From Mya arenaria (taxonomy: Eukaryota; Mollusca; Bivalvia; Myida; Myidae): DNA of 64,000 nt. A program made the position numbers and the translations under genes. The DNA lies in assembly GCF_026914265.1 (NCBI RefSeq), contig NC_069136.1, positions 37,490,362 to 37,554,361 of the forward strand, written 5' to 3'. The notes beneath the pieces were generated by a model that was not told the DNA's origin, searched no databases, and was given only the letters and a program-made list of their open reading frames with translations. Shown piece by piece: positions 14,270-59,650 of this stretch; within the stretch, counting starts at the first letter, position 1, and each line of letters begins with the position of its first letter.

Positions 14270-14642
14270 CAGTCAAATTTAACAACAAGGCTATCTTGCT
14301 AGACTAGTGTCAGTACTTAAAGGCAGCATATACATACAATAAAAATTACATACTTTGTTTGATAACTGAATTTTTAAAATTACAGTGTATTTATTTGTTC
14401 ACAGGGTCTATGACCTTCTGGATATTCTGTAAATAAATTCTGAACTTGTAATAAAATCTAAAGTATTAAAGTTAAGTAAAAATCCATTAAATTATTACAT
14501 TCCTATTGAAAAAAAACAAACTATTCGTACGTGCAGTTTGTGTTGACAAACACTGTCCACTTCCTGTTGCATTGATACGCTACACGTATTGATTAGATAG
14601 TTGATGATAACTGCAAGGTTGCAAAACCTTTAACAAGTGCAG
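14270..14642. other. Unique spacer between the 46-bp array and the transporter start
   Basis: AT-rich. With 14936-15244 it is the only non-repeat DNA upstream of the transporter ATG within the window, so it probably holds its promoter and 5' UTR. No specific motif is called. Confidence 0.4.
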
Positions 14643-15244: not shown

Positions 15245-15338
15245 ATGTTTGAAAGTATGACGTACACGGCTCGACGGAATATTGTTATTTTCGGAGGCTT
15301 CCTTATACACCTTTGTCTAGGAAGTTTTTATGCATTCG
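15245..15338 (+). CDS. MFS transporter exon 1
   Basis: Start codon and TM1 (residues 1-31 plus one base), ending ...SFYAF G before donor gtaagt. A second in-frame ATG follows at residue 5; the first was chosen as the longer open start. Confidence 0.85.
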
Positions 15339-28000: not shown

Positions 28001-31000
28001 GAGCCACATTGGTCCTACCGACTGAACTAGCCGGTTGCCCCTTCTCCGACCGCCCCAAATATATTGTTATTAATATCCAAACTAACGCATATATTGTTGA
28101 CGTGGTTCCCGCTTAACGCGAAAGACGGGAAATTAACAAATCATTATATATTACATTTATCTTTTCAGAAATCGGTTGATTACTTACGAAACTTTGGAAT
28201 ATTAATAAACGCATAAATTGTAACCATCATAAGTTTTCTAAACTATTTCATACAATAAAAAAGGCGTTTAAGTTTTGAAAATCTGAAATTAGGTAAAAAT
28301 CGGCCCAGAAAGTTATATACAGCGTTGATGGGACACCGACTTTAAAGGGGCTAGACACCAGCTGATACAATTGCAAGAAAAACAGAGACATTTTTCAAAA
28401 ACTAATATTAAATTGATATCGGTCTGTACAACTCATTTGATCTCACTTACTGATGAATCACATCAGTTACGACACATGCGTCTTTAGCAGTTTTTGCGTA
28501 TTTTTCCAAAACGACATTTACAGGTTTTGTCTACCACTTAAAGCCAAGTTAATTGAAAAAATCGTCGGTACATATAACTGTACTAGTTATGTGGCTTACA
28601 CATGCTAAATATACACACTGTTATCTGGGAAACCATTATGCATTTATATTTTTAAATGGGATAACTCAGTTGAGACAGCGACAAAATAAAAAAAAAAAAT
28701 AAATCATGTAAAGTTATGTGTTATCGGTCCCATGCTTATATTGTCAATTCTAGGCTAAGTCTGTGGAAAAAATGTATTTGCCGATTTTGGGACCATCTGG
28801 TGTCTAGTCCTTTTAAGAAAATATTTTCTATTACGGAGAATACGAGGGCATAATATACCATTCTAAAATACGTATATGTGTCTGCCCACAGATACGAGTG
28901 TCACGGATGCGGGAAGATCAACCGTCAGGTGCAGTCGACGATGGGGCGGCCTCGTCAGACAGAGCCGATTTTGACGAGTCTGTTAATATCTTTGGCGATG
29001 AACATCATAACAATGACCAGTAACGCGTTTTTGGAAAATTAATGCACCAGTCAATTGTAACCTAGGCCTCCAGGTCCGGGAAATAGCGGGGACTTTGACT
29101 TTCGGTCCAGCCAACCCCGGGTAAAATCCCCGCCCGGCTGGTACACACTGCTGGTAAAATCCCCGCCAAATGCCACCGCACCCCAGGAACCCTAGGTTAG
29201 TCCCCCCCCCCCGCTTTTTTGGCGCGAAGACAAATCACCGCATTTACCCGGCACTTTGGGGCCACTTGGAACGCAAAACACGACCCATTATCCCGGCTAT
29301 CCCTGGTATACACCCGTACCTGGGGTAGGGGCCGTGGTTACAATTGACTGGTGCATAACAACATATTTGCGAGATGGTCTCAAATTGTTTTAACGGTGAA
29401 TGTATTTAATGCTTGCGAGCTTGTGTTTATTCCGACCTGCCAAAAAGTGCAGGTTCGGGATTTTCACTTTTAGTGTATGTTTTCTTTACCATTTTGGCAT
29501 TTACTGTTTTTTCATTCGGTGCGATTATGTATATACCAAACATGCGACGGTACTTCACCTCGCAACATATGTTATATCAGCCAGAGGGCATATTTTCGAT
29601 AGCCAAACTGTTTATAATATCGCTGTCTCCTTCATTGTTTGCTACGTATTCGTTGCAGGGCGCAGACAGTCTGGGGAACCGTGAAAGAGATCTTTGTGAA
29701 CAAGGACGCGTGGAAGATCCATCTCATCATACTGTTTGTTTATGCGGGAATGCAAGTCGTACATAGCTACTACAAGGTATGTTTTCAGTATCAGATAGCG
29801 CCAGATGATTTTGGATTATGGGAATTATCAAATGTGTGAACTCAAATTGAAAAATTAATGGAATATGCATTGGTAGTACAGTACATTACACTAAGAATGG
29901 TACAAACCCTTGGAGCTATTGAATTTAAAAAGACCAAGAGTAAATTTTGTAAGCTTTTGGCTGGTGTTACATTAATATTTTACCCCGTTGAAAACCAAGT
30001 TGAAAACTGGCCCTAAGGCATTTCACGCGGACTATGAGCACTCCGAGATAATGAGAGTAATCTGCCGATAAAGTATGTATGCTTCTGAGATCAGCGTTCT
30101 CGGTTCCATTGCGATTGTTCATTGAAAGCAATATAATATGCAACAGTACCATAGCCCATTCGGAACTCCTCGGCCCTTTTTATCGAAAATAACATCGGAT
30201 GTATGCCGGTACATTTTAGTAGAAGTAGTTCGTAAAATTTTGAATTATATCATTAATCTAATGTAGTAGTTAAGCTTATCTTTGTTAATCTAAGTTTAAA
30301 TTGATTGCCATTGAAGTGTAATATTGCAAACATAATTAAGATAACCTAGAGTTAAGTCATTAACCTTAACTTTAAAATTAAATTACAACGCGATCTACTT
30401 GCAGCGAGCTTAAATATACCAATTTCTGAGTATGTAAACCGTCCAAACACATTGTTTTCGATAAAAATTGGCGAGGAGTTCCCAATGTACCATAGCCAAT
30501 TTACTATTTGTTATTGTATGCATAAAAAGATAACGAACGGCTTTGTAAATATTTGTTCCAATATTTGTTTATTTCAACCTATATGCTTTTATTTCCAGGT
30601 CACAAACTTATTGTTGTATTTTTGATGTTTTATGTATGTTTGTTATTCATGTCGGAAATAGTTCATTGGGCTAATGTTTCTTGTTAACACATACCCGAAT
30701 TTAAATAAAGATTCCTGTATCTTGTATAGCCCGCTGCATTGGCATATTAGCGGTATATAATGTACAACTAAGTATCATGTCACCGCACCCCTGTCCTCTA
30801 CAATATACATGGACTTTATTGGCACTGCTTGGTCTTGGCATCGAACAAACGTCCACAATACGTACCATCTACTACTTAAATACAACATTTGCATTTCTTT
30901 GTAAGTTTAAAACGGTTTAAACTTTAAACCAAACTAAAGGCACGTCTTTTCCGTCAATCTATTGCAGATCTATGGACAAACCTTTATCAAGAACGACACG

Positions 31001-34000
31001 TATTTGGGTGTAGTCGGCTCCATAGCATCCGTGTTCAACAGTTTTTGTAGACCGCTCTGGGGAGTCGTGTTTGACAAGAAAGGTTTTAAGGTAGGACCGT
31101 CTTGTGTTGCACCCATTATTATCAACGTTACGGTATAGCTGATTGCATAATCATTTCGGGTTTCCAAGTCCTTATAAATTCAAAAAAGGGCAATTGTACT
31201 TCATTTCGTCACCACTGACCATCTCAGTACATGTGAATGGAAATAAATTTAAATCGGAATATTTCAGCTATGGAACACCTCTAACTGCTCAAACATGTTG
31301 ACCAAGAAAATATTTGTCATCAAAAAAGTGCAGTATTCAAACAGTTTTAATAAGTGCTTATGACATTCATGGCGATTTTGTTGATACCGAATTAGTTTAA
31401 GTTTGGGTTTCGGCGGGTTTCGGCGGTTTGGGAACCAGTTTCAAGACTTTTGCTTGAAGTAGCACATATATGGTTCTGTGTACAACTTCAACAACATGAT
31501 TGAGCTTTTGCATATAGCCAGTATTTCTCATTTTCTTCAAAATAATGAAACCGCCGATGATCGTTTGCCTGTTTTAACTAAATGGTGTTTCAACACTCGT
31601 CTTGGATCACTGTCAAGCCATGTTGTTGTTTCAAAGTGAATTAGTTTCCGGATGGAACGAACAGACGATACCGCCTCCAAATGGGGTTTCAATGCTTTCA
31701 AAAACCAGTTTCGGTTTTTGTACAACAACCAATTAAACTTGTAATCATTTATTTGAAACAAAAACAATACAATACCATAACTAGTATATAACTAACAAAA
31801 ACACCCTTATTATCCACATTTAGTTCACCATGACGATCATCTTGGCAATATACGTAACGCTGTCTTGCACCATCATGTATACAGAAAAGATCACTGCCCA
31901 CAACCAGGCCTTCGGGGAGGCCTGTTTCATGATCTGGATATGTGGAATGTACGCCATGTTTGCAGGTACAGGGATACACTTTATGGTTTCATAGTTTGTT
32001 CAAATGCATAAAGGCTCTATGTCCATAAGCATACATCAATGTAATTCATAATATATAATTATATATGCAATTCTGTCGATCCTTGGTAATAACATATATT
32101 AATATATGTATAAGTATTTATGCTAAAAAGGAAACACAAATTGTACATAGACATTTCACATAGACTACAGCTTAATCATAGTGAGGGGACAGTGGTTACA
32201 AATATCCTTTGAATGTGTTATGTAACATCATCATATTATACAATACGATGACCGAAGTTGTTTCACGTTTTTACTAAGTACATTGTTCAATAGATTCTAA
32301 CTATCAGGCTAAAGCTATAACACTGAGTATTTTATTGTCACGATTTATTATACTCAGAGTCATATTGTTACTATATATAAGGCTTAAACTTCAACACAGG
32401 GTATGTTATTGTCACTATTTTTCGGGCTTAAACTTAAAATACGGATCTTTTATTGTCATTAAATATCAGACTAAAACTACACATCAGATTCTTTTATTGT
32501 CACTAAATATCAGGCTCACTGTCAGACACCGCAACACAGAGTATTTTATTGCCTTTATGAATCATACGTAAACTACAACAGAGAGTATTTTATTGCCTTT
32601 ATGAATCATACGTAAACTACAACACAGAGTATTTTATTGCCTTTATGAATCATACTTTAACTCCAAGACAGAGTATTTTATTGCCTTTATGAATCATAAT
32701 TAAACTACAACACAGAGTATTTTGTTACTTTAAATCAGGCTAAAATATTACACAGAGTAGTTTGTGTCACTTTAAATCAGGCTAAACAACGGCACAGAGT
32801 TTTTTTGATACTGTATATCAGGCTAAAAGTAACACAGAGTATTGTTGTCACTTTAAAACAGGCTAAACAACAGCACAGATTATTTCTGTCACTTTTTTGT
32901 GACTTATCTTTCGAAATTGAACTTGCGAGAACAAAAGAAAAACAAATACGTAAGCTGACGCTCTTCTGTTTGTCAGGTCTGTGGTCCGTATGCCCGACTG
33001 TCTACAGTAAACTGTTTGGTCCGAACAACATGGCAGTGTGCCTGGGATATCAGTTCCTTGCGCTGGTTTGTATCGTCTCAAACAGATGGATTTCCTATTT
33101 AGAAAAAGAGTTGTATTTTGATGGCTGCATCTTTTGTTACCATATATAAGCAAAAAATGTAATTGTATGGCTGCAATGTATTGTAACTGTACTTCAACAA
33201 GGTTATGTTATTGTATGGCTGCAATGTATTGTAACTGTACTTCAACAAGGTAATGTTATTGTATGGCTGCAATGTATTGTAACTGTACTTCAACAAGGTA
33301 ATGTTATAGTATGACTGCAATGTATTGTAACTGTACTTCAACAAGGTAATGTTATTGTATGACTGCAATGTATTGTAACTGTACTTCAACAAGGTAATTT
33401 TATTGTATGACTGTAATGTATTGGTACTGTACTTCAACAAGGTACTGTAAGTGTATGGCTGCAATGTATTGTAACTGTACTTCAACAAGGTTATGTTATT
33501 GCATGGCTGTAATGTATTGTAACTGTACTTCAACAAGGTAATGTTATTGTATGACTGTAATGTATTGTAACTGTACTTCAACAAGGTTATGTTATTGCAT
33601 GGCTGTAATGAATTGTAACTGTACTTCAACAAGGTAATGTTATTGTATGACTGTAATGTATTGTAACTGTACTTCAACAAGGTAATGTAATTGTATGGCT
33701 GCAATGTATTGTAACTGTACTTCAACAAGGTAATGTTATTGTATGAATGCAATGTATTGTAACTGTACTTCAACAAGGTAATGTTATTGTATGAATGCAA
33801 TGCATTTTAACTGTACTTCAACAAGGTAATGTTATTGTATGACTGCAATGTATTGTAACTGTACTTCAACAAGGTAATGTTATTGTATGGCTGCAATGTA
33901 TTGTAACTGTATTTCAACAAGGTACTGTAAGTGTATGGCTGCAATGTATTGTAACTGTACTTCAACAAGGTTATGGTATTGCATGGCTGTAATGAATTGT

Positions 34001-37000
34001 AACTGTACTTTAACAAGGTAATGTTATTGTATGAATGCAATGTATTGTAACTGTACTTCAACAAGGTAATGTTTTTGTATGGCTGCAATGTATTGTAACT
34101 GTACTTCAACAAGGTTATGCTATTGCATGGCTGTAATAAATTGTAACTGTACTTCAACAAGGTAATGTTATTGTATGAATGCAATGAATTGTAACTGTAC
34201 TTCAACAAGGTAATGTTCTTGTATGGCTGCAATGTATTGTAACTGTACTTCAACAAGGTACTGTTAGTGTATGGCTGCAATGTATTGTAACTGTACTTCA
34301 ACAAGGTTATGATATTGCATGGCTGTAATGAATTGTAACTGTACTTCAACAAGGTAATGTTATTGTATGACTGTAATGTATTGTAACTGTACTTCAACAA
34401 GGTACTGTAATTGTATGGCTGTAATATATTGTAACTGTACTTCAACAAGGTAATGTTATGGTATGAATGCAATGTATTGGTACTGTACTTCAACAAGGTA
34501 ATGTAATTGTATGGCTGCAATGTATTGTAACTGTACTTCAACAAGGTACTGTAATTGTATGGCTGCAATGTATCGTAACTGTACTTCAACAAGGTAATGT
34601 AATTAAATCGCTACAATGTATTGTAACTGTATTTCCACAAGGTAATGTAATTGCATCGCTGCAATGTATTGGTACTGTACTTCAACAAGGTAATGTTATT
34701 GTATGAATGCAATGTATTGTAACTGTACTTCAACAAGGTAATGTTATTGTATGAATGCAATGTGTAGTAACTGTACTTCAACAAGGTACTGTAATTGTAT
34801 GGCTGCAATGTATTGTAACTGTACTTCAACAAGGTAATGCAATTGTATGGCTGCTATGTATTGTAACTGTACTTCAACAAGGTACTGTAATTGTATGGCT
34901 GCAATGTATTGTAACTGTACTTCAACAAGGTACTGTAATTGTATGGCTGCAATGTATTGTAACTGTACTTCAACAAGGTAATGTTATTGTATGGCTGCAA
35001 TGTATTGTAACTGTATTTCCACAAGGTAATGTTATTGTATGACTGCAATGTATTGTAACTGTACTTCAACAAGGTAATGTTATTGTATGGCTGCAATGTA
35101 TAGTAACTGTATTTCCACAAGGTACTGTAATTGTATGGCTGCAATGTATCGTAACTGTACTTCAACAAGGTACTGTAATTGTATGGTTGCAATGTATTGT
35201 AACTGTACTTCAACAAGGTAATGTTATTGTATGGCTGCAATGTATAGTAACTGTATTTCCACAAGGTACTGTAATTGTATGGCTGCATTGAATCGTAACT
35301 GTACTTCAACAAGGTAATGTAATTGCATCGCTGCAATGTATTGTAACTGTATTTCCACAAGGTAATGTAATTGTATGGCTGCAATGTATTGTAACTGTAC
35401 TTCAACAAGGTAATGTTATTGTATGACTGCAATGTATTGGTACTGTACTTCAACAAGGTAATGTAATTGTATGACTGCAATGTATTGTAACTGTACTTCA
35501 ACAAGGTAATGTAATTGTATGAATGCAATGTATTGTAACTATACTTCAACAAGGTGATGTAATTGTATGACTGCAATGTATTGGTACTGTACTTAAACAA
35601 GGTAATGTAATTGTATGAATGCAATGTATTGTAACTGTACTTCAACAAAGTAATGTAATTGTATGAATGCAATGTATTGTAACTGTACTTCAACAAGGTA
35701 ATGTTATTGTATGACTGCAATGTATTGGTACTGTACTTCAACAAGGTAATGTTATTGTATGAATGCAATGTATTGTAACTGTACTTCAACAAGGTAATGT
35801 AATTGTATGACTGCAATGTATTGGTACTGTACTTCAACAAGGTAATGTTATTGTATGACTGCAATGTATTGTAACTGTACTTCAACAAGGTAATGTTATT
35901 GTATGGCTGTAATGTATTGTAACTGTACTTCAACAAGGTAATGTAATTGTATGACTGCAATGTATTGGTACTGTACTTCAACAAGGTAATGTTATTGTAT
36001 GACTGCAATGTATTGGTACTGTACTTCAACAAGGTAATGTAATTGTATGACTGTAATGTATTGTAACTGTACTTCAACAAGGTAATGTAATTGTATGACT
36101 GCAATGTATTGGTACTGTACTTCAACAAGGTAATGTTATTGTATGACTGCAATGTATTGTAACTGTACTTCAACAAGGTAATGTAATTGTATGGCTGTAA
36201 TGTATTGTAACTGTACTTCAACAAGGTAATGTAATTGTATGACTGCAATGTATTGGTACTGTACTTCAACATGGTAATGTTATTGTATGACTGCAATGTA
36301 TTGGTACTGTACTTCAACAAGGTAATGTAATTGTATGACTGCAATGTATTGTAACTGTACTTCAACAAGGTAATGTTATTGTATGACTGCAATGTATTGG
36401 TACTGTACTTCAACAAGGTAATGTAATTGTATGACTGCAATGTATTGTAACTGTACTTCAACAAGGTAATGTAATTGTATGGCTGTAATGTATTGTAACT
36501 GTACTTCAACAAGGTAATGTTATTGTATGACTGCAATGTATTGTAACTGTACTTCAACAAGGTAATGTAATTGTATGGCTGTAATGTATTGTAACTGTAC
36601 TTCAACAAGGTAATGTTATTGTATGACTGCAATGTAATGTAACTGTACTTCAACAAGGTAATGTAATTGTATGGCTGTAATGTATTGTAACTGTACTTCA
36701 ACAAGGTAATGTTATTGTATGACTGCAATGTATTGTAACTGTACTTCAACAAGGTAATGTAATTGTATGACTGCAATGTATTGGTACTGTACTTCAACAA
36801 GGTAATGTAATTGTATGACTGCAATGTATTGGTACTGTACTTCAACAAGGTAATGTAATTGTATGACTGCAATGTATTGGTACTGTACTTCAACAAGGTA
36901 ATGTAATTGTTTGACTGCAATGTATTGTAACTGTACTTCAACAAGGTAATGTTATTGTATGGCTGTAATGGATTGTAACTGTACTTCAACAAGGTAATGT

Positions 37001-40000
37001 TATTGTATGACTGTAATGTATTGTAACTGTATTTCAACAAGGTAATGTTTTTGTATGACTGCAATGTATTGGTACTGTACTTCAACAAGGTAATGTTATT
37101 GTATGGCTACAATGTATTTTAACTGTACTTCAACAAGGTAATGTTATTGTATGACTGCAATGTATTGTAACTGTACTTCAACAAGGTAATGTTATTGTAT
37201 GAATGCAATGTATTGTAACTGTACTTCAACAAGGTAATGTAACTGTATGACTGCAATGTATTGGTACTGTACTTCAACAAGGTAATGTTATTGTATGGCT
37301 GTAATGTATTGTAACTGTACTTCAACAAGGTAATGTTATTGTATGACTGCAATGTATTGGTACTGTACTTCAACAAGGTAATGTTATTGTATGAATGCAA
37401 TGTATTGTAACTGTACTTCAACAAGGTAATGTAATTGTATGGCTGTAATGTATTGTAACTGTACTTCAACAAGGTAATGTTTTTGTATGACTGCAATGTA
37501 TTGGTACTGTACTTCAACAAGGTAATGTAATCGTATGGCTGTAATGTATTGTAACTGTACTTCAACAAGGTAATGTAATTGTATGACTGCAATGTATTGG
37601 TACTGTACTTCAACAAGGTAATGTAATTGTATGGCTGTAATGTATTGTAACTGTACTTCAAAAAGGTAATGTAATTGTATGACTGCAATGTATTGTAACC
37701 GTACTTCAACAAGGTAATGTTATTGTATGACTGCAATGTATTGTAACTGTACTTCAACAAGGTAATCTTATTGTATGACTGCAATGTATTGGTACTGTAC
37801 TTCAACAAGGTAATGTAATTGTATGGCTGTAATGTATTGTAACTGTACTTCGACAAGGTAATGTAATTGTATGAATGCAATGTATTGTAACTGTACTTCA
37901 ACAAGGTAATGTAATTGTATGAATGCAATGTATTGTAACTGTACTTCAACAAGGTAATGTTATTGTATGACTGCAATGTATTGGTACTGTACTTCAACAA
38001 GGTAATGTATTTGTATGGCCTCTAATGTATTGTAACTGTACTTCAACAAGGTAATGTAATTGTATGACTGCAATGTATTGGTACTGTACTTCAACAAGGT
38101 AATGTAATTGTATGGCTGTAATGTATTGTAACTGTACTTCAACAAGGTAATGTAATTGTATGACTGCAATGTATTGTAACTGTACTTCAACAAGGTTATG
38201 TTATTGCATGGCTGTAATGAATTGGTATTGTACTTCAACAAGGTAATGTAATTGTATGAATGCAATGTATTTTAACTGTACTTCAACAAGGTAATGTTAT
38301 TGTATGACTGCAATGTATTGGTACTGTACTTCAACAAGGTATTGTAATTGTATGAATGCAATGTATTGTAACTGTACTTCAACAAGGTAATGTTATTGTA
38401 TGACTGCAATGTATTGGTACTGTACTTCAACAAGGTATTGTAATTGTATGAATGCAATGTATTGTAACTGTACTTCAACAAGGTAATGTTATTGTATGAC
38501 TGCAATGTATTGGTATTGTACTTCAACAAGGTAATGTAATTGTATGACTGCAATGTATTGGTATTGTACTTCAACAAGGTAATGTAATTGTATGGCTGTA
38601 ATGTATTGTAACTGTACTTCAACAAGGTAATGTAATTGTATGACTGCAATGTATTGGTACTGTACTTCAACAAGGTAATGTAATTGTATGGCTGTAATGT
38701 ATTGTAACTGTACTTCGACAAGGTAATGTAATTGTATGAATGCAATGTATTGTAACTGTACTTCAACAAGGTAATGTAATTGTATGACTGCAATGTATTG
38801 GTACTGTACTTCAACAATGTAATGTAATTGTATGAATGCAATGTATTGTTACTGTACTTCAACAAGGTAATGTAATTGTATGAATGCAATGTATTGTAAC
38901 TGTACTTCAACAAGGTAATGTTATTGTATGAATGCAATGTATTGTAACTGTACTTCAACAAGGTAATGTTATTGTATGACTGCAATGTATTGTAACTGTA
39001 CTTCAACAAGGTAATGTTATTGTATGACTGCAATGTATTGGTACTGTACTTCAACAAGGTAATGTAATTGTATGGCTGTAATGTATTGTAACTGTACTTC
39101 AACAAAGTAATGTTATTGTATGACTGCAATGTATTGGTGCTGTACTTCAACAAGGTAATGTTATTGTATGACTGCAATGTATTGGTACTGTACTTCAACA
39201 AGGTAATGTAATTGTATGGCTGCAATGTATTGTAACTGTACTTCAACAAGGTAATGTAATTGTATGACTGCAATGTATTGTAACTGTACTTCAACAAGGT
39301 AATGTTATTGTATGACTGCAATGTATTGGTACTGTACTTCAGCAAGGTAATGTAATTGTATGGCTGTAATGTATTGTAACTGTACTTCAACAAGGTAATG
39401 TTATTTTATGGCTGCAATGTATTGTAACTGTACTTCAACAAGGTAATGTAATTGTATGGCTGCAATGTGTTGTAACTGTACTTCAACAAGGTAATGTTAT
39501 TGTATGACTGCAATGTATTGGTACTGTACTTCAACAAGGTAATGATTTTGTATGGCTGTAATGTATTGTAACTGTACTTCAACAAGGTAATGTTATTTTA
39601 TGGCTGTATTGTATTGTAACTGTACTTCAACAAGGTAATGTAATTTTATGGCTGTATTGTATTGTAACTGTACTTCAACAAGGTAATGTAATTTTATGGC
39701 TGTAATGTATTGTAACTGTACTTCAACAAGGTAATGTTTTTGTATGGCTGCAATGTATTGTAACTGTACTTCAACAAGGTAATGTAATTGTATGGCTGCA
39801 ATGTATTGTAACTGTACTTCAACAAGGTAATGTATTTGTATGGCTGCAATGTATTGTAACTGTACTTCAACAAGGTAATGTAATTTTATGGCTGTATTGT
39901 ATTGTAACTGTACTTCAACAAGGTAATGTAATTTTATGGCTGTATTGGATTGTAACTGTACTTCAACAAGGTAATGTAATTTTATGGCTGTAATGTATTG

Positions 40001-43000
40001 TAACTGTACTTCAACAAGGTAATGTTTTTGTATGGCTGCAATGTATTGTAACTGTACTTCAACAAGGTAATGTAATTGTATGGCTGCAATGTATTGTAAC
40101 TGTACTTCAACAAGGTAATGTAATTGTATGGCTGCAATGTATTGTAACTGTACTTCAACAAGGTAATGTAATTTTATGGCTGTATTGTATTGTAACTGTA
40201 CTTCAACAAGGTAATGTAATTTTATGGCTGTATTGTATTGTAACTGTACTTCAACAAGGTAATGTTTTTGTATGGCTGCAATGTATTTTAACTGTACTTT
40301 AACAAGGTAATGTAATTTTATGGCTGTATTGCATTGTAACTGTACTTCAACAAGGTAATGTAATTGCATGGCTGCAATGTATTGGCACTGTACGCCAACA
40401 ATGAATTGCAATTGTTTCCCTTACAAATTATTGCAATTGTGTTACTTATGCTGATACTTTGTCGTGCTTTGTGCTTTGTTGTCAATATCAGTCAGATATT
40501 GGGAATATTTTTACTATTTACTTAAATTATTAACACCTAGTATCGATATAACAATATCAACAACAACAACTGACGGATATTGACTTTGTGAAAAGACGTG
40601 GCACCCTTGCAGATTATGTTTTTACTGCCTCTTCCATTCGATCTGTGATGTCCTGTCGTGTGTAGTACAAGGAAAACCTTTTATGATCAATCTATTTAAT
40701 CAGAAAAATACTTGGCTACACAATAAAACAAACCCGCCATTTAAATAATGATATTTGAATGATTTGAGCGTTTATGTTCCATAAATGACCGTTGGTTCCA
40801 TTGAATAAATTGTTGAATAAGTTCTATCGAACTTCAAACAACGGTAAATTTATTTTGACAATTGAGTAATCCCACATGTCATGTGATGATGACCGAAGAC
40901 ACGTGTCTTCATTACAAAATTACAATTTGCTTAAATTTTACAAAGGATAGTTGATTGTTTACTTTAAAAACAACGGCAATAATGGAAAATCATAAAATAT
41001 TGCACGAATACGTATAAATAATACGAATAAAGCTATATTTACATATGTGGTGGCAGAGATCTGCCTGCTGGTCAAGGGAGGTAACTGCGTATGAGATTGA
41101 GGTTATATAATGCTGCTTGTCTCTATAATACTTGTATTTGATTCATAAGTGAGTCGCAAACTGGCTTTAAAAAAAGGTGATTCTGTTTTCGATTATATCT
41201 GAAAGGAAAATAATCATCAAAAAAAGGTGGTATATTTTACATGTGTATTGGTTGTATAGAAACAAGTTAATTTAACACAGTTCTCTTATATATGCATATG
41301 TGTACCTTTTTGTATTTCATTTGATATTTGCCTTGTATCATGTATAATGGGCCGGAGGCCTTTTATTTCAATAGATGTTCGTTCCTTCGATCATTTAAAT
41401 ATGCTTTTAGGGGATCGGTATACTGGTTGGAAACTCCGCTGGGTTGTGGCTGAAGGATATAATTGGCTGGCACTGGATGTACATCCTCGCTGGCACCATG
41501 GACGCTGCAGGTCAGCACCTATTATTAGTTTCAGAAGCATTTGAACTCGAACAAAACTATATACATTTATGATAAACTTGTCCGGGAACGTTGCATTAAA
41601 AACAGGTACATAGACATAGTACTGGTGACATACAACATCAGAAACAACATAAAAAACGGGGCTCCTCAAGATATAACTTTACTTTTCTCAGCTCCACAAT
41701 ACGAATGAAAATAATAGTTGGATACCATTCTCTCTTTCCTCTCAAACCTGTATAACCAATAGCTACATAGATCTGGGTCCCTTTTATCACAAACTGAACG
41801 AATTTTCTTAATATTGACTTAATCTGCCGAGCTAAGTCTCTTGCAAGGCTGACGTGAGATGAAACATTCACCTTCTGCGGTATGAGTAGGGACAAATCCA
41901 GTTGACCACAAACTTAAAACTATTTGTTTGGTCCCAACAAAGATAAAACCGATACACATGACACATATTCAATTCCATATGAAGCCTACATGACAATAAG
42001 AAAAATAAAGTGCATGTACATATCAATCAGAAATGTTCGTAGATTTTATCGAGGACATGCATATCAGTGTGTTCAAATGCAATTTTGATTAATGCTGCTG
42101 GCAGAGTACCCATATTCGCAATGTCTGAAGTTTGAGTTTAGACTAAGGCATATATTAATTAATTTTGTTATAATTGATCTTACATAAGTAAGGATGGTAA
42201 AAATTGCTATGTCTGTCATAAATAATCTGTTCTACGCTCAGGCAAACATCTTTTGTCGAAATAAACTATGTTATATATATTTTGAAACATCTAAGAATTC
42301 AATTAATGAGCTTATCTACACAGAATATGAAAACTACTGTTACATATTCACGCGCATTATATGTGGTAATACTATTCAATGAATGAGATTATCATCAGAA
42401 CAGGGACTATTTTCTTTCCGAAATTCAATTTCATGCTTGGTTGACGGAAAGGTCATTTGGCATCTCGCTCATATTCAGTGGGGTACCACATAATTGAGCG
42501 CAGACTTTATTGACTTAAAAAGAAGTACCGTTGGTAACACCCGCATATTGAGAAAAAATGGATTTCACTGTCATCCCAGGAAGAAAAGGGTGAACACAAT
42601 CCTTGTTAACTTGCCGTCGGGAATAACGTTCCAGAAAGAGTATCTCCTCTATCACACAATCAATACCACAGTAATAGTACACGCATGATTAGCCTAACAC
42701 GAAAATTATAGAAAAAAAACATTTTGTTTTATTAAAAAGCGCATTGATAATGAAGCTATAGCCTTCCTATTCAAAGGGACGCAACTAATGAAAGTGGACT
42801 GCCGAAGCAGTCACCACCCATTTCAGATAAAAACAAGCAACACTCGTGCAACAACTTCTCAGGGATTTTGTCTTGTATGCATACCTGGAAAGTTTTCTTT
42901 ATGTCTACGTTATTATATGTTTCAGTTTTAAACTAACAGAACGAACTCAGCTGTTTTAAGTTTAACTCTAGATTCTAGCCATTATCAAACAAAGCTCTTG

Positions 43001-45234
43001 CTGAATGTAAATTAAAGTAGTGTTACAACTGAATGACCATAAATCTATGCCTTAAAATATGAATCCATTTTGTCATGTCTTTTGTTTAACGGTCTCTATA
43101 CATTGGTTAAATGGACGATAACTTTTTTTTCACCGTTTGTCTGAATATTGTTTTAATGAACAATGTTTTTTAGCGATTGTCTGTACACAATGGTTCAATG
43201 AACAATGCCTTTTGTTTCAGACTTCTCCTGTACACAGTGATTCAATAAACAATGAGTTGTGTTTCAGACTTCTCTTGTACACAATGTCTCAATGAACAAT
43301 GGCGTTTGTTTCAGACTTATCTTGTACACAATGGCTCAATGAACAATGGCGTTTGTTTCAGACTTCTCCTGTACACAATGGTTCAATGAACAATGCCTTT
43401 TGTTTCAGACTTCTCCTTTACACAATGGCTCAATGAACAATGCCTTTTGTTTCAGACTTCTCCTGTACAAAATGGCTCAATGAACAATGCCTTTTATTTC
43501 AGACTTCTCCTGTACACAATGGCTCAATGAACAATGGCGTTTGTTTCAGACTTCTCCTGTACACAATGGCTCAATGAACAATGCCTTTTGTTTCAGACTT
43601 CTCCTGTACACAATGGCTCAATGAACAATGGCGTTTGTTACAAACTTCTCCTGTACACAATGGCTCAATGAACAATGCCCTTTGTTTCAGACTTCTCCTG
43701 TACACAATGGCCCAATAAACAATGACTTTTGTTTCAGACTTCTCCTTTACACAGTGGCTCAATGAACAATGATTTTTGTTTCTGGCATCTTCTGTACACA
43801 GTGGCTCAATGAACAATGATTTTTTTTTTGGCATCTTCTGTACACAGTGGCTCAATGAACAATGATTTTTGTTTCTGGCATCTTCTGTACACAGTGGCTC
43901 AATGAAAAACTACTTTTGTGTCAACGTTCGCCGGTACACTGTGATTTAATAAACTGTCAGCTTTGTTTCAGCGTTCGCCTGTACACTCTGGTCTTATTAA
44001 CAATGAATGTGTTTCAGCTTTCGTCTGTACAATGGCGGCCAATGAACAATTACTTTTGTTTTAGCGTGTGTCTGTTCATTGTTGTTCAAAGAACAATTAC
44101 TTGTCCGTACACTGACGTCCAACGAACACTGACTTATGCTTTAACGTTCGTCTGTACAATGTTGTCCAATGAGTAATGACTTTGTTTCAGTATTAGTCTG
44201 CACACTATGTTTAATTATCACTGATTTTGTTTTGAGCGTTCGTCTGCACACTGGTGTTAAATGACCATGATTTTGGTTCAGCGTTCATCTGAACACTGGT
44301 GTTTAATGATCCTGATTTTGGTTCAGCGGTCGTCTGCTCACTGTGTTTAATGAATACTGACATTCTTTCAGCTTTCGTCTGCACACAAGTTTTTATTGAT
44401 CCCTCATTTTGTTTCAGCGTTCGTCTGCCGATGTGGTTTAATGATCAATGACTTTGTTTCACGATGTGGTTTAATGATCAATGACTTTGTTTCAGCTTGT
44501 GTCTGCACACCGTGGTTTTATGATTCCTGATATTGTTTTAGCGTGTTGCTGCACACTAAGTTTTAAAAATCAATTCAAGTTCGTCTGCACATTATGGTTC
44601 AATCATAAATGCCTTTGTTTCAACGATTGTCTGCACACTGCTGTTCAATTATCAATGCCTTTGTTTCAGCGTTCGTCTGCACACTGTTGTTCAAATTTCA
44701 ATGTCTTTGTTTCAGCGTTCGTCTGTACATTGTTGTTCAATTTTCAATGCCTTTGTTTCAGCGTTCGTCTGCACATTGTTGTTCAATTTTCAATACCTTT
44801 GTTTCAGCGTTCGTCTGCACATTGTTGTTCAATTATCAATGCCTTTGTTTCAGCGTTCGTCTGCACATTGTTGTTCAATTTTCAATGCCTTTGTTTCAGC
44901 ATTCGTCTGCACACTGTGGTTCAATTATCAATGCATTTGTTTCAGCGTTCGTCTGCACACTGTTGTTCAATTTTCAATGCCTTTGTTTCAGCGTTCGTCT
45001 GCACACTGTGGTTCAATTATCAATGCCTTTGTTTCAGCGTTCGTCTGCACACTGCTGTTCAATTATCAATGCCTTTGTTTCAGCGTTCGTCTGCACACTG
45101 CTGTTTAATTATCAATGCCTTTGTTTCAGCGTTCGTCTGCACACTGCTGTTCAATTATCAATGCCTTTGTTTCAGCGTTCGTCTGCACACTGTGGTTTAA
45201 TGGCAAGAACATTGATACTGACGACGATATTTAA
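15245..45234 (+). CDS. MFS transporter, oxalate:formate antiporter / monocarboxylate carrier-like (12 exons, 474 aa)
   Basis: Exons: 15245-15338, 16479-16668, 24670-24796, 25654-25781, 27370-27496, 28892-29019, 29659-29776, 30968-31090, 31824-31965, 32977-33065, 41411-41510 and 45176-45234. Every intron is GT-AG and each phase matches the next, giving 1425 nt with stop. The product has about 12 hydrophobic segments, as expected for the major facilitator superfamily. TM1 begins NIVIFGGFLIHLCLGSFYAF. An MFS motif-A-like loop follows TM2 (GSYIERNHGVR), and its second-half equivalent is RPLWGVVFDKKGFK. An acidic, polar central loop covers residues ~219-264 (exon 6). The GNISPYIMSYL segment after TM1 and the overall pattern resemble the oxalate:formate antiporter-like / apicoplast pyruvate carrier-like group in invertebrate genomes. 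The substrate is unknown; a small monocarboxylate is an inference. Introns 2 and 10 exceed 8 kb because of repeats. Introns 9, 10 and 11 hold minisatellites. Confidence 0.88.
15967..16026. repeat. (AT)n microsatellite
   Basis: About 30 uninterrupted AT dinucleotides in transporter intron 1. Confidence 0.95.
16121..16413 (+). mobile_element. MITE family with aggcctagtt termini, copy 1
   Basis: Begins ttaaagacctagtttta and ends ttaaactaggcctttaaa as an inverted repeat. The internal block (gatctgataaga, ccatttagggt, cctccaaaactgcag) is shared with inverted copies at 51983-52320 and 60160-60366. Confidence 0.65.
16479..16668 (+). CDS. MFS transporter exon 2
   Basis: Residues 32-94: NISPYIMSYL loop, TM2 and the motif-A-like GSYIERNHGVR, running into TM3. 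Acceptor atttgcaag, donor gtaagg. Confidence 0.88.
16872..17242 (+). mobile_element. ~370-bp MITE (tttaaagatgcactctt termini), copy A
   Basis: Left end tttaaagatgcactcttact; right end aataagagtgtcactttaaa, its imperfect inverted repeat. Related copies in this window: 20664-20972, 26967-27340, 50980-51335, 55538-55860 and 56188-56580. No coding capacity, so non-autonomous. Confidence 0.75.
17605..17682. repeat. Short palindromic remnant (tcactaaaccgg / ccggtttagtga)
   Basis: Two direct copies of tcctcactaaaccggaa face an inverted gtccggtttagtgagttt. It looks like the end of a pogo-like element collapsed to its terminal repeats. Confidence 0.45.
17925..18185. repeat. Interspersed repeat shared with 24330-24585
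   Basis: Both stretches have 'acagaaacaagc..agtagc(a/c)aaa' near the start and 'ccg..ttggaacggtcagt' then 'tttactgg(g)gg(t)ttt' near the end. Type unknown; no coding sequence seen. Confidence 0.5.
18280..20320. mobile_element. Helentron-like non-autonomous element with ~145-bp core repeats ('pearl'-type)
   Basis: Left end: aaccaggttttcaacgaaaa, then a G-rich gggcgggcgggctggcgggc stretch. Right end: aacctggtttcgtcgcattg, then cggcgcttctagttttt. Between are about 10 tandem ~145-bp units (aactttagttagcattgata, gaaacttggtgtgtaggtag, gctagcttgggattgctttt, aaggtcaaggtcactgttac). Short inverted ends, a hairpin-like 3' end ending in ctagttttt and tandem cores fit molluscan Helentron-derived elements. 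The family call is from memory of such elements. No replicase is present. Confidence 0.6.
19252..19571. mobile_element. ~320-bp element inserted into the Helentron-like core
   Basis: Interrupts one core unit between ggtcactatta and cttaaaatag. It begins aggcctgaaaaaattgtttg and ends with an inverted ccaaatgtatttttttaggc + ct. A long T run lies inside. It must be younger than the host element. Confidence 0.6.
20664..20972 (-). mobile_element. ~370-bp MITE family, copy B
   Basis: Inverted relative of 16872-17242, from tttaaagtgacactcttatt to aataagggtgcatctttaa. Somewhat shortened internally. Confidence 0.7.
21770..23500 (-). pseudogene. Degraded coding-like region, family not recognised
   Basis: On the minus strand, stretches of protein-like sequence with charged, lysine-rich and cysteine-bearing segments recur across about 1.7 kb, broken several times and interrupted by a MITE (22781-23105). 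The longest surviving open stretch is 21770-22165 (131 codons). Codon-like composition differs from the surrounding AT-rich intron. It could be a dead transposon gene, another old mobile-element fragment or a processed pseudogene. No domain was recognised, so no function is given. Confidence 0.35.
22781..23105. mobile_element. ~325-bp MITE with 23-bp near-perfect inverted ends
   Basis: Left ttaaagctgcactctcacag, right ctgtgagagtgcagctttaa. Internal sequence is also partly symmetrical (gtcttgaaaagagc / gctcgttccaagac). The termini resemble those of the ~370-bp MITE family, hinting at a shared transposase type. Confidence 0.75.
24060..24320 (+). pseudogene. Two decayed duplicates of transporter exon 3 with acceptor region
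   Basis: Around 24108-24200 and 24215-24310 the sequence follows the exon 3 boundary: a pyrimidine tract, then gtattt/taattcgycattcarra, tcgctgtac and a gg(t/c)tgac..agttt stretch. This parallels gtatttcgccatccagcggt, cgctgtac and ctcacttacgggtt in exon 3 at 24670. The upstream intron bases (accaagctattttgcc versus atcaagccattccacc) also align with the first copy. Neither copy keeps a full exon or a good donor. Confidence 0.6.
24330..24585. repeat. Interspersed repeat shared with 17925-18185
   Basis: Matches the other copy at both ends (ctacagggacaagcctagta; gttttgaacggtcagttga). It sits between the decayed exon 3 duplicates and exon 3. Confidence 0.45.
24670..24796 (+). CDS. MFS transporter exon 3
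   Basis: Residues 95-137, CSGVLLTYFAIQRSLY through PPVQNAAK (TM3-TM4). Acceptor tgtcttcag, donor gttcgt. Two decayed relatives of this exon lie about 0.4-0.5 kb upstream. Confidence 0.88.
24955..25075 (-). mobile_element. tRNA-like SINE head
   Basis: On the minus strand, an A-box-like segment (agcctagtggttgagcg) is followed by a B-box-like gcgttcaacattc. It lies in transporter intron 3. Decayed. Confidence 0.4.
25654..25781 (+). CDS. MFS transporter exon 4
   Basis: Residues 138-179, WMPARPALAVGLIVGGFGLG through the NPDNIQIND loop. Acceptor ttcttgcag, donor gtgagt. Confidence 0.9.
26195..26300. repeat. Short interspersed repeat shared with 54620-54725
   Basis: Both contain ttgaaa(g/a)a(a)aaa.. 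then gtgagcttagctt, ttataggagac / ttataagggac and aaattggggcc. Type unknown. Confidence 0.5.
26967..27340 (+). mobile_element. ~370-bp MITE family, copy C
   Basis: Same family, ending 29 bp before transporter exon 5. The termini are more decayed (tagatgcactattactccc ... aataagagtgtaattttaaa), suggesting an older copy. Confidence 0.7.
27370..27496 (+). CDS. MFS transporter exon 5
   Basis: Residues 180-222, DYFTDQALLDRVPRVFFLLA (TM6 region) to PPENEH. Acceptor tttctacag, donor gtacgg. It starts 29 bp after a ~370-bp MITE. Confidence 0.86.
27655..27790 (-). mobile_element. tRNA-derived SINE head, copy 1
   Basis: Minus strand: box A ggctaagtcagtcgg and box B gtgggttcgagtcccgg. The spacing is tRNA-like but no tRNA fold with matching acceptor stem is seen. 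Confidence 0.55.
27940..28060 (-). mobile_element. tRNA-derived SINE head, copy 2
   Basis: Minus strand: box A ggctagttcagtcggtagg and box B gtgggttcaagtcctgg. Same family and orientation as the head at 27655-27790, about 280 bp away. Confidence 0.55.
28341..28816. mobile_element. MITE with ctagacacca termini, copy 1
   Basis: Begins tttaaaggggctagacacca and ends gggaccatctggtgtctagt + ccttttaa, an inverted repeat. The second copy is at 50583-50984. It ends 75 bp before transporter exon 6. Confidence 0.7.
28892..29019 (+). CDS. MFS transporter exon 6 (central cytoplasmic loop)
   Basis: Residues 223-264, polar and acidic (IRVSRMREDQPSGAVDDG ... HHNND). Acceptor ctgcccacag. The donor gtaacg is unusual and overlaps a TAA: reading through would end the protein one codon later. 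The phase-2 join to exon 7 (ca|g) restores an open frame into AQTVWGTVKEIF. Confidence 0.78.
29043..29355. mobile_element. GC-rich MITE with 20-bp perfect inverted ends
   Basis: Left tgcaccagtcaattgtaacc, right ggttacaattgactggtgca, flanked by TAA on both sides. This fits a PIF/Harbinger-type 3-bp TWA target duplication. The interior is far more GC-rich than its surroundings. It starts 23 bp after the donor of transporter exon 6. Confidence 0.8.
29659..29776 (+). CDS. MFS transporter exon 7
   Basis: Residues 265-304, AQTVWGTVKEIFVNKDAWK then TM7 and HSYYK. Acceptor cgttgcag, donor gtatgt. A longer open frame crossing this exon in another phase is not the gene. Confidence 0.88.
30157..30487. 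mobile_element. 331-bp MITE with intact 10-bp target-site duplication
   Basis: Ends cattcggaactcctcg and cgaggagttcccaatg are inverted repeats with one mismatch. The direct repeat taccatagcc lies immediately outside both ends (30147-30156 and 30488-30497). A 10-bp duplication fits Mutator-like elements. It lies in transporter intron 7. Confidence 0.8.
30968..31090 (+). CDS. MFS transporter exon 8
   Basis: Residues 305-345, IYGQTFIKNDTYLGVVGSIA through the second motif-A-like RPLWGVVFDKKGFK. Acceptor ctattgcag, donor gtagga. Confidence 0.9.
31395..31700. repeat. Interspersed repeat pair, copy 1
   Basis: Shares long near-identical blocks (gcatatagccagtatttctc, gcctgttttaactaaatggt, tggatcactg) with 53068-53360, in the same orientation. 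Lies in transporter intron 8. Type unknown. Confidence 0.7.
31824..31965 (+). CDS. MFS transporter exon 9
   Basis: Residues 346-392, FTMTIILAIYVTLSCTIMYT through ICGMYAMFA (TM9-TM10). Acceptor cacatttag, donor gtacag. Confidence 0.9.
32290..32880. repeat. Degenerate 44-56-bp minisatellite in transporter intron 9
   Basis: Recurrent cagagtattttattg + cctttatgaatcata + cgtaaactacaaca. In the best part (32525-32710) the period is 44 bp. The left part is a longer, older variant (tattgtcactaaatatcagg). It ends about 95 bp before exon 10. Confidence 0.85.
32977..33065 (+). CDS. MFS transporter exon 10
   Basis: Residues 393-422, GLWSVCPTVYSKLFGPNNMA through YQFLAL. Acceptor gtttgtcag, donor gtttgt, which is weak. 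The 48-bp array with many stronger donor-like sites starts about 90 bp downstream. Confidence 0.86.
33155..40402. repeat. 7.2-kb minisatellite, 48-bp unit (~150 copies) in transporter intron 10
   Basis: The unit reads gtatggctgcaatgtattgt + aactgtacttcaacaagg + taatgttatt. The period of 48 is divisible by three, so the minus strand shows very long open frames of a 16-residue repeat (ITLLKYSYNTLQ..., up to 744 codons). These are a by-product of the period. Variants (ggctg/gactg/gaatg; attgtaac/attggtac; gttattg/gtaattg) alternate in higher-order patterns. Every unit contains the donor-like caacaaggtaatg on the plus strand. About 150 such sites follow the weak real donor of exon 10. Confidence 0.97.
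39590..40400. repeat. 288-bp higher-order repeat (six 48-bp units) at the array's right end
   Basis: The series gtaattttatggctgtattg (twice), gtaattttatggctgtaatg, gtttttgtatggctgcaatg, then two gtaattgtatggctgc-type units repeats with a 288-bp offset: the gtttttg unit starts near 39731, again 288 bp later at 40019, and again 240 bp later at 40259 in a five-unit version. Confidence 0.8.
40403..41410 (+). other. Rest of transporter intron 10
   Basis: Unique-looking AT-rich intron sequence between the 48-bp array and exon 11. No further gene or named repeat is seen. Confidence 0.6.
41411..41510 (+). CDS. MFS transporter exon 11
   Basis: Residues 423-455, GIGILVGNSAGLWLKDIIGW through GTMDAA (TM11-TM12). 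Acceptor atgcttttag, donor gtcagc. The correct frame is not the one with the longest open reading frame here. Confidence 0.86.
41511..43074 (+). other. Left part of transporter intron 11, no recognised element
   Basis: AT-rich sequence with short open frames on both strands (up to 85 codons at 41638-41895, minus) that show no recognisable motif. Confidence 0.5.
43075..45175 (+). repeat. Tandem array of the exon 12 splice acceptor and exon start (46-48-bp unit)
   Basis: The proximal unit (about 44580-45175) reads tttgtttcag + cgttcgtctgcacactg + ctgttcaattatcaatgcc, 46 bp. It is the same as the true junction tttgtttcag|cgttcgtctgcacactgtgg at 45166-45195. Distal units (43140-43900) have diverged to tttgtttcagacttctcctg + tacacaatggctcaatgaac + aatg, 47 bp; the middle section is intermediate. 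About 40-45 copies. Nearly all keep a pyrimidine tract followed by CAG. The 46-bp period rotates the frame, and the proximal copies have almost no stops in any plus-strand frame. Confidence 0.9.
45176..45234 (+). CDS. MFS transporter exon 12 (last exon)
   Basis: Phase-1 join gives A-FVCTLWFNGKNIDTDDDI-stop, the end of TM12 and an acidic tail. The acceptor is ctttgtttcag. The acceptor plus the first ~25 coding bases are repeated tandemly upstream through most of intron 11, so the true acceptor was chosen as the last copy, the only one followed by unique coding sequence and a stop in phase. Confidence 0.75.
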
Positions 45235-45980
45235 ATGGCACAGCCACGTCAGAGTATACCACATTGACCTTACTGACATACAAGAGGACGATGCTGCTGT
45301 TGTTGTTGGTGTAGTTCTTTGATGCTGTTGTTGATACTTCCTTGAAATAACAACAGCAAAAACAAAATCAAAAGGAGTCTAATTAAATTGCATTATATAC
45401 GATGGTTGTGTAAATGTTCCTCTGTCATTCAGAATTAAATACGTGCCATGGAATCGATATTTTCAAATATGTTGCTCAAATATATAGCGGATTACATGGC
45501 TACATGTATATAAAACCAATTACATTTTACTTACAGCTCGATTTAAGGAAATTCAATGAATATATTCAGAGTTGACTTTGATTTTATATGCACTGAAGGG
45601 GTCATCATATGAACTTTCTTAGGAAATTCAATTGATTAACTAAGAGTGAGAAATCGAATACAGATTTTATTTTTAAGAAGAAAAGACAGTCTATCATTTC
45701 AATTCTAAAGGTTTGTTTCAAAAATAGATTTTATCACAATACAGTTATGTTTATTTGAAAAAGGGATCGTGAGATACGATCATTGATAAGATGGGGTTAT
45801 TTGGTCCACTTTATCATCGGGCGTACGACCAAATATAGTAAAATGAAGAATTTCAGTTAAATATTGAGTAAATGTAACAAATTAAAACTTTAACTTACAA
45901 AATCAAACGATATTTGCCCAAACCTTTATTAAAAGCTCTTATTTTCGAGACGGACATTAACACTCTTCAGAAATATCAAT
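45235..45980 (+). other. 3' flank of the transporter gene
   Basis: AT-rich sequence after the stop codon. No canonical AATAAA was picked out close to the stop. No other feature recognised. Confidence 0.5.
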
Positions 45981-57244: not shown

Positions 57245-59650
57245 TGGGACGGTAATCATAAAGCATATTAAGTCGTTTCCTAACTTAAGTTCATTTCTTA
57301 AAATTTTCATAGTCGAATTACAAGAAATGCACAAGTGTTTTGCTTAATTACGTTTAATGCAAATAATGTATTTAGGAAAGTCTTTATGTTTTATTTCATA
57401 TGACTAAGGAGATACTAAACTTAGGAAAGTGACATAAGTTAGGAAATGACTTTCATTTCCTATCTTAAGGCATTTCCTATCTTAAAGCATTTTCTATCTT
57501 AAGACATTTAATTTCCTATCTTAAGTCTTTTCCTATCTTAAGTCATAGCTTAAGTCGTTTTCTATCTTAAGTCATTTCCTATCTTAAGACATTACCTATC
57601 TTAAGTCATTTCCTATTTTAAGTCATTTCCTTTCTTAAGGCATTACCTATTTTAAGTTATTTTCTATCTTAAGTCATTTCCTATCTCGATGCATTACCTA
57701 TTTTAAGTCATTTTCTATCTTAAGTCATTTCCTATCTTAAGGCATTACCTATCTTAAGGCATTACCTATCTTAAGTCATTTCCTATCTTAAGTCATTTCC
57801 TATCTCAAGGCATTACCTATCTTAAGTCATTTCCTATCTTAAGGCATTACCTATCTTAAGTCATTTCCTATCTTAAGGCATTACCTATCGTAAGTCATTT
57901 CCTATCTTAAGGCATTACCTATCTCAAGGCATTACCTATCTTAAGTCATTTTCTTTCTTAAGGCATTTGCTATCTTAATGCATTTCCTATCTTAAGGCAT
58001 TACCTATCTTAAGGCATTTCCTATCTTAAGTCATTTTCTATCTTAAGGCATTTCCTATCTTAAGGCATTTCCTATCTTAAGTCATTTCCTATCTTAAGGC
58101 ATTACCTATCTTCAGGTATTACCTATCGTAAGGCATTACCTATCTTAAGTCATTTTCTATCTTAAGGCATTTCCTATCTTAAGGCATTTCCTATCTTAAG
58201 TCATTTCCTATCTTAAGGCATTACCTATCTTAAGTCATTTCCTATCTTCAGGCATTTCCTATCTTAAGTCATTTCCTATCTTAAGGCATTACCTATCTTC
58301 AGGCATTTCCTATCTTCAGGCATTTCCTATCTTAAGGCATTACCTATCTTAAGTCATTTCCTATCTTCAGGCATTTCCTATCTTAAGTCATTTCCTATCT
58401 TAAGGCATTTCCTATCTTAAGTCATTTCCTATCTTAAGGCATTTCCTATCTTAAGTCATTTCCTATCTTAAGTCATTTCCTATCTTCAGGCATTTCCTAT
58501 CTTAAGTCATTTCCTATCTTAAGGCATTACCTATCTTAAGTCATTTCCTATCTTAAGGCATTTCCTATCTTAAGTCATTTCCTATCTTAAGGCATTACCT
58601 TTCTTAAGGCATTACCTATCTTAAGTCATTTCCTATCTTAAGTCATTTCCTATCTTAAGGCATTACCTATCTTAAGTCATTTCCTATCTTAAGTCATTTC
58701 CTATCTTCAGGCATTTCCTATCTTAAGGCATTACCTATCTTAAGTCATTTCCTATCTTCAGGCATTTCCTATCTTAAGTCATTTCCTATCTTCAGGCATT
58801 TCTTATTTTAAGTCATTTCCTGTCTTAAGGCATTACCTATCTTAAGGCATTACCTATCTTAAGGCATTTCCTATCTTCAGGCATTTCCTATCTTAAGTCA
58901 TTTCCAATCTTAAGGCATTACCTATCTTAAGGCATTTCCTATCTTAAGGCATTACCTATCTTCAGGCATTTCCTATCTTAAGGCATTTCCTATCTTCAGG
59001 CATTTCCTATCTTAAGGCATTTCCTATCTTAAGGCATTACCTATCTTAAGTCATTTCCTATCTTAAGGCATTACCTATCTTAAGTCATTTCCTATCTTAA
59101 GGCATTACCTATCTTAAGTCATTTCCTATCTTAAGGCATTACCTATCTTAAGTCATTTCCTATCTTCAGGCATTTCCTATCTTAAGGCATTACCTATCTT
59201 GAGGCATTTCCTATCTTCAGGCATTCTCTATCTTAAGTCATTTCCTATCTTAAGTCATTTCCTATCTTAAGGCATTACCTATCTTAAGTCATTTCCTATC
59301 TTAAGGCATTACCTATCTTAAGTCATTTCCTATCTTAAGGCATTACCTATCTTAAGTCATTTCCTATCTTCAGGCATTTCCTATCTTAAGGCATTTCCTA
59401 TCTTAAGGCATTTCCTATCTTCAGGCATTCTCTATCTTAAGTCATTTCCTATCTTAAGTCATTTCCTATCTTAAGTCATTTCCTATCATAAGGCATTTCC
59501 TATCTTCAGCCATTTCCTATCCTAAGGCATTCTCTATCTTAAGTCATTTTCCTAAGTAAAACACTGATCATATGATGGAATAGTTTGATAATAACAGAAA
59601 AACTTAAGCATCAGTTAAGAATTGACTTAAAATGATTTATGAATTCCATC
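57245..59650. mobile_element. Same MITE family, enlarged to 2.4 kb by an internal minisatellite
   Basis: Left gggacggtaatcataaagca then tattaagtcgtttcctaact. Right end inverted: cagttaagaattgacttaaa ... catccatt. Nearly all of the interior is the 17-bp array at 57455-59555, whose unit resembles the element's own terminal block. Confidence 0.65.
57455..59555. repeat. 2.1-kb minisatellite, 17-bp unit (~123 copies)
   Basis: Unit cctatcttaagtcattt with main variants aagGcat, ttCagg and catTAcc. Most units contain the palindrome CTTAAG. Variants form short runs with two- to four-unit periodicity. Confidence 0.95.

Follow-up and report, generated by a model that had tools for sequence, protein, structure and literature searches.

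The stretch of DNA analysed here (the window: 64,000 nucleotides of the forward strand of Mya arenaria contig NC_069136.1, positions 37,490,362 to 37,554,361) carries a predicted 12-exon gene for an MFS (oxalate:formate antiporter-like) transporter of 474 amino acids. Its last intron ends in a long tandem array whose units resemble the 3′ splice site next to it. The features of the gene and of the array, in window positions, are as follows.

15245-45234, + strand: host gene, predicted on the basis of reading frame and splice signals, with an MFS_1 profile match, protein homologues and tblastn matches
15245-15338, 16479-16668, 24670-24796 and 25654-25781, + strand: predicted exons 1-4
27370-27496, 28892-29019, 29659-29776 and 30968-31090, + strand: predicted exons 5-8
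31824-31965 and 32977-33065, + strand: predicted exons 9-10
41411-41510, + strand: predicted exon 11, donor gtcagc, predicted partner exon 12
43072-45202, + strand: tandem array of 46-47 bp units, a minisatellite of the ‘mirage’ type, which fills intron 11 at its 3′ end and extends 27 nt into exon 12; its 5′ boundary was set by eye and is approximate
43202-43905, + strand: homogenised distal block with 15 units scored, each about 47 bp long; on average they are 0.86 identical to one another and 0.65 to the native junction
43906-44650, + strand: diverged block in the middle, with 15 scored units and additional truncated ones in gaps; mean identity about 0.6 between units and 0.73 to the native junction
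44651-45156, + strand: homogenised proximal block of eleven 46-bp units, on average 0.93 identical to one another and 0.91 to the native junction; CAG in 11 of 11
45157-45175, + strand: native 3′ end of intron 11 (T-rich tract and CAG), the intronic half of the last unit
45176-45234, + strand: native exon 12, phase 1, coding for AFVCTLWFNGKNIDTDDDI and a stop; the amplification covers its first 27 nt

A gapless scan of the window with the native junction (positions -20..+26) as query scored 44 units, namely 43 upstream copies and the junction itself, with acceptor registers running from 43134 to 45176 and mostly 46-47 bp apart. The unit consists of the last 19 intron bases and the first 27 coding bases of exon 12, with one additional base in most distal units. 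Unit scores range from 26 to 46 out of 46, against best scores elsewhere in the window of 24 on the + strand and 25 on the − strand. The motif TTTGTTTCAGCGTTCGTCTG, allowing up to three mismatches, occurs 24 times in the window, always within the array, compared to a mean of 0.00 in 100 shuffles. Two gaps of 78-80 bp (44065-44145 and 44418-44496) hold further truncated units, and with a degenerate unit seen by eye near 43090 the total comes to about 46-47. A sequence-only reading of this DNA had described a 3′ splice site amplified about 40-fold beside the last exon, which these counts confirm. It had also given every unit an acceptor and a copy of the exon start; the unit length of 46-47 bp stands, but the AG is kept in 35 of the 44 units including the native one (34 of 43 upstream copies) and lost in nine, and the exact 20-mer across the junction is found in 12 of 44. 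The start of the native exon, previously put at 45175, is 45176.

The origin of the units depends on whether exon 12 is the true last exon. Matches by tblastn cover exons 1-11, and the support for exon 12 comes from protein alignment. A protein search in which 33 proteins of 7997 candidates scored came out above threshold provided 13 fetched sequences, 11 of which were aligned; with one truncated sequence (P0001) set aside, ten bivalve homologues remained for the C-terminus. In all ten the alignment runs ungapped across the border of exons 11 and 12, and their end points coincide, one gap column apart, which supports exon 12 as the ancestral last exon. Among the ten, F457 is kept in 10, F463 in nine, G465 in eight and K466 in six (three others have R); nine share the final residue. 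The amplified 27 nt encode AFVCTLWFN, which from the alignment appears to be the end of the last transmembrane helix (TM12). Two fetched proteins, one from Mercenaria (P0007) and one from Mya (P0009), were left unaligned; their C-termini differ and lend no support to the exon 12 end, and we assumed that they are mis-predictions or other isoforms. The latter is isoform X2 of the Mya arenaria paralogue LOC128219536, whose C-terminus leaves the family pattern from around the exon 11 region, as if an alternative splice had shifted the frame.

Because the homologues support a native last exon at 45176-45234, derivation of the units from the intron 11/exon 12 border, as had been proposed, is likewise supported. 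Five upstream copies (44670, 44854, 45038, 45084 and 45130) show no difference from the native site over -20..+3. No other border of the gene gave such an array on the + strand of the window: for its 10 other acceptors and 11 donors the best matches were 23-28 of 46, as against 44 for exon 12. That an array reaches into an exon is not remarkable here, because 12 counted tandem arrays take up 37% of the window and, when arrays were placed at random, 42% of trials had one or more array edges within an exon of this gene. (The 12 arrays were merged by hand from 61 repeat rows, and the short rows at 17602, 19442, 23914 and 25071 were not counted.)

The internal structure of the array shows how it may have evolved. 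Similarity to the native site increases toward the exon (Spearman 0.76 over 43 copies), in line with the earlier suggestion that the nearest copies match best. The distal copies, however, have not merely drifted but form a 47-bp family of their own (0.86), and it is the middle units that are most diverged, with a mean identity of 0.61 over the 12 of 15 units used. The block identities do not include three over-long or truncated middle units (44065, 44418 and 44542) or the two outermost units (43134 and 43174). Identity between units drops with distance, from 0.77 at lag 1 to 0.66 at lag 8. Two homogenised blocks flanking a diverged core, together with this decay, are typical of minisatellite turnover and do not fit the steady outward growth from the exon that had been envisaged. 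A perfect 33-bp direct duplication in the middle block (44429-44461 and 44462-44494) points to local slippage. The middle units have diverged by about 0.5-0.6 substitutions per site, which suggests that the array is old, provided that the divergence was neutral.

We then considered what the copies would do if they were spliced. Entry phase is identical for all of them by construction. The 34 upstream AGs give predicted tails of 3-219 aa, and none restores the native C-terminus; copies offset by a multiple of three hit a stop, which for the proximal ones lies at 45106-45108. The frames given in the sequence-only reading hold, entry one copy upstream running to a stop at 45198-45200 and entry two copies upstream to one at 45320-45322. 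All 11 proximal copies begin with AFVCTL and have tails of 23-217 aa. Stops within a last exon are not expected to trigger nonsense-mediated decay, and the altered tails, ending as they do in the last exon, should escape it. For scoring of the copies with a splice-site model, which had been recommended, a position weight matrix built from the gene's 10 other acceptors proved too weak, with leave-one-out scores of real sites from -6.7 to 9.7; under this weak matrix the native site scores 3.4, below the 95% point of 4.9 for 2835 background AGs, while eight of the 35 AG units lie above that point. We therefore compared the copies with the native site base by base instead: five copies are identical over -20..+3, and any scoring limited to those bases must score them as native.

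These observations bear on a first alternative, that acceptor choice is leaky or stochastic, with several proximal copies used appreciably to give the same TM12 followed by varied tails, under no selection. The AGs kept in 34 of 43 upstream copies, the five native-identical sites, the AFVCTL start of the 11 proximal copies with their range of tails, and the expected escape from decay all speak for it. Excerpts of PMC3087553 show its authors noting that copies in comparable amphioxus arrays, termed mirages, could serve as cryptic sites, and alternative transcripts are frequent at human boundary minisatellites according to excerpts of PMC2812944. Against it, the mirages of amphioxus Adh, troponin C and globin genes are reported, in excerpts of PMC3087553 and PMC3902484, not to interfere with regular splicing. 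In addition, three protein searches, limited by candidate length and number, found no model with array-encoded sequence, one of them, with the last 170 aa of the host protein, giving no match among 71 candidates; as database proteins are predictions within length limits, the lack of an array-encoded tail is a weak test. On balance we hold leaky choice to be unlikely.

A second alternative, raised in the sequence-only reading, is that the array is a selected device that sets tail diversity or the splicing rate of the terminal intron. If so, one might expect its acceptors to be unusually conserved. Over all 43 copies the AG columns reach about 0.88 against 0.76 for other columns, and in the middle block 0.83 against 0.73, both above the column mean as this alternative would have it. 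The order is reversed in the distal block (0.87 against 0.92), and conservation extends to nearly every column of the proximal one. Other columns are conserved at least as well as the AG in 36% of cases for all 43 copies, 84% for the distal, 32% for the middle and 75% for the proximal block. Hence the comparison of columns across the 43 copies and the three blocks gives no clear support for selection on the AG. The -19..-13 intronic bases of the middle block stand at 0.52 in a separate ungapped, CAG-anchored comparison, a low value that comes partly from indels and the anchoring.

The same alternative can point to the single entry phase of all copies, the preservation of the TM12 end by the 11 proximal ones and a proximal block with one stop over three frames. 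Phase and TM12 retention, however, follow automatically from the origin of the unit. The scarcity of stops, which had been claimed for the copies nearest the exon, holds for the proximal block alone (one stop in 44625-45175 as against 21.1 in base shuffles), and it is no independent evidence of selection because a single 46-bp unit, repeated about 12 times with little change, makes up the segment, and the scarcity is essentially one chance event. Nor does any AG-bearing copy regain the native tail, and RNA structure does not stand out as a selecting feature, since the segment 45038-45260, where the array ends, shows no unusual degree of structure (z = +1.77, with 196 of 200 shuffles folding equally well or better). 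With AG conservation unexceptional and no array-encoded protein model among the limited candidates searched, we give a selected device very little credence, and tail diversification is without positive evidence. In its boldest form, the array would be a copy-number-variable generator of C-terminal tails for a clam transporter, free of nonsense-mediated decay because it acts in the last exon, an idea that strikes us as highly doubtful. If true, it would offer 34 AG-bearing upstream acceptors with one entry phase, of which the proximal 11 are near-native and keep TM12, so that only the tail varies.

A third alternative concerns the gene itself. Joining the 12 exons, whose positions were set from splice signals and reading frame, yields an uninterrupted protein of 474 aa, with GT-AG ends to the introns. 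The protein matches MFS_1 (PF07690; E 2.1e-26, 93.1 bits with a cut-off of 33.4), and its full-length relatives are the ten aligned bivalve homologues, at 35-46% identity. Two of the protein matches are named ‘oxalate:formate antiporter-like’ and one ‘L-lactate transporter-like’; by name only, the substrate may be oxalate, formate or a related organic acid. The closest protein is Mya arenaria LOC128219342 (324 aa), with four differences in the first 304 aligned residues. This model reads on past exon 7 and terminates within intron 7 (29777-29836); it may be a prediction that was cut short, or else a genuine short isoform without the second half of the transporter. The gene could accordingly be decaying or truncated upstream, with transcripts ending in intron 7 and the array lying in an unused 3′ part where it has no relevance to splicing. 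The 324-aa model, an AATAAA at 30704 in intron 7 and an intron 10 holding a 7.2-kb array and 122 copies of the donor-like motif CAAGGTAATG are consistent with such truncation. Exons 8-12, however, have open reading frames throughout, their introns begin with GT and end with AG, and the part of the MFS fold that they encode, its second half, is conserved. Moreover, long repeat-filled introns would easily yield a truncated prediction. We judge upstream truncation to be most improbable.

The array in intron 10 (33156-40415) comprises about 151 units of 48 bp. The 122 copies of CAAGGTAATG match the donor consensus at 7 of 9 positions, and the native exon 10 donor CTGGTTTGT at 6 of 9. We rejected this array as a donor mirage, as the best match to the exon 10 donor border was 27 of 46 and was located elsewhere. 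Intron 10 thus holds many donor decoys, in parallel with the acceptor decoys of intron 11. Two other arrays lie outside the gene, a 9-kb one upstream of it (5201-14274) with TATA/GTTGCATATA units and periods of 46, 92 and 138, and one of TCATTTCCTATCTTAAG-like units at 57453-59554.

The closest known system is that of the amphioxus mirages, for which we draw on excerpts of PMC3087553 and PMC3902484. Mirages are minisatellite-like tandem duplications of exon/intron borders, described in the globin genes BflGb6 and BflGb9, Adh3, troponin C and PGBD5 (the Adh and troponin C cases as cited there); regular splicing was reported as undisturbed for the globin, Adh and troponin C genes, and haplotypes differ in length. 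As in BflGb6, the Mya array repeats the 3′ end of an intron and the 5′ part of the next exon, its unit spanning the border with 19 intron and 27 exon bases in 44 units. In both systems AG or GT is kept in many but not all units, here in 35 of 44, and there is concerted evolution within clusters, the distal and proximal blocks of the Mya array having an identity of 0.61 to each other. The differences are in scale and setting. There are 43 upstream copies in Mya as against six and three units in two BflGb6 haplotypes, and the unit is 46-47 bp long compared to 150-160 bp in BflGb6 and 10-72 bp in Adh3. The Mya array belongs to a mollusc and to the terminal exon of a transporter, and whereas instability and normal splicing are reported for amphioxus, the clam case is read from DNA.

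Other precedents are more distant. Human variable tandem repeats at exon-intron boundaries have units of about 30 bp, four on average, and can alter splicing (excerpts of PMC2812944); those repeats make novel introns with RNA support, whereas the Mya repeat lies inside an existing intron. The AGGT model of intron gain is alike in that tandem duplication copies splice signals, but it duplicates an exonic AGGT to make a new intron, while the Mya array copies an existing 3′ splice site and implies no new one (excerpt of PMC3443670). Excerpts of PMC3448621 and PMC12783039 contain nothing on acceptor arrays, and no mollusc mirage was among the matches listed from the open-licence literature. By analogy, the Mya array is most likely a large, neutral example of an amphioxus-type mirage, in a mollusc.

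Collectively our data favour a long neutral minisatellite of the mirage type whose gene mainly uses the native acceptor, to which we assign a probability of about 0.73. Of the possibilities raised earlier, neutral expansion with decoys is thus the best fit. In the model we propose, a 46-bp segment across the intron 11/exon 12 border was tandemly duplicated, and the block pattern suggests expansion and local homogenisation by slippage or unequal exchange. With each duplication the final copy would remain continuous with the remainder of exon 12, therefore the array could grow in the intron without coding damage. The spliceosome would mainly use the 3′-most, native acceptor at 45176, chosen by its context and not by local sequence. 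Terminal-exon definition, involving the downstream exon and its poly(A) site, is our preferred answer to how identical sites 46 nt upstream are ignored. The upstream copies would then be mostly unused decoys. Occasional upstream use would probably be tolerated, because the 11 proximal copies keep codons and phase and complete TM12, and a last-exon stop should not lead to decay. Beyond the amplified 27 nt exon 12 is still open and retains K466 and the terminal I, and the intactness of this unamplified part despite an apparently old array argues that the native acceptor is in use.

Several points weigh against this model. Of the five copies identical over -20..+3, four also match the native site over -20..+17, and such identity means that local sequence gives no ground for exclusive native use. 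Weak constraint is conceivable given that AG conservation exceeds the column mean, both overall and within the middle block, and the argument from age assumes neutral divergence of the units. The public LOC128219342 model stops before exons 8-12. At human boundary minisatellites 66% of intron modifications also had an alternative transcript that keeps the repeat (excerpts of PMC2812944), a precedent which, by analogy, counts against assuming that all Mya copies are silent.

The array provides a clean natural test of 3′ splice-site choice, with several identical acceptors 46 nt apart that differ only in position and downstream context. The mirages in the cited excerpts come from lancelets, and a bivalve case with more than 40 units suggests that they may be a general product of genomes rich in tandem repeats.

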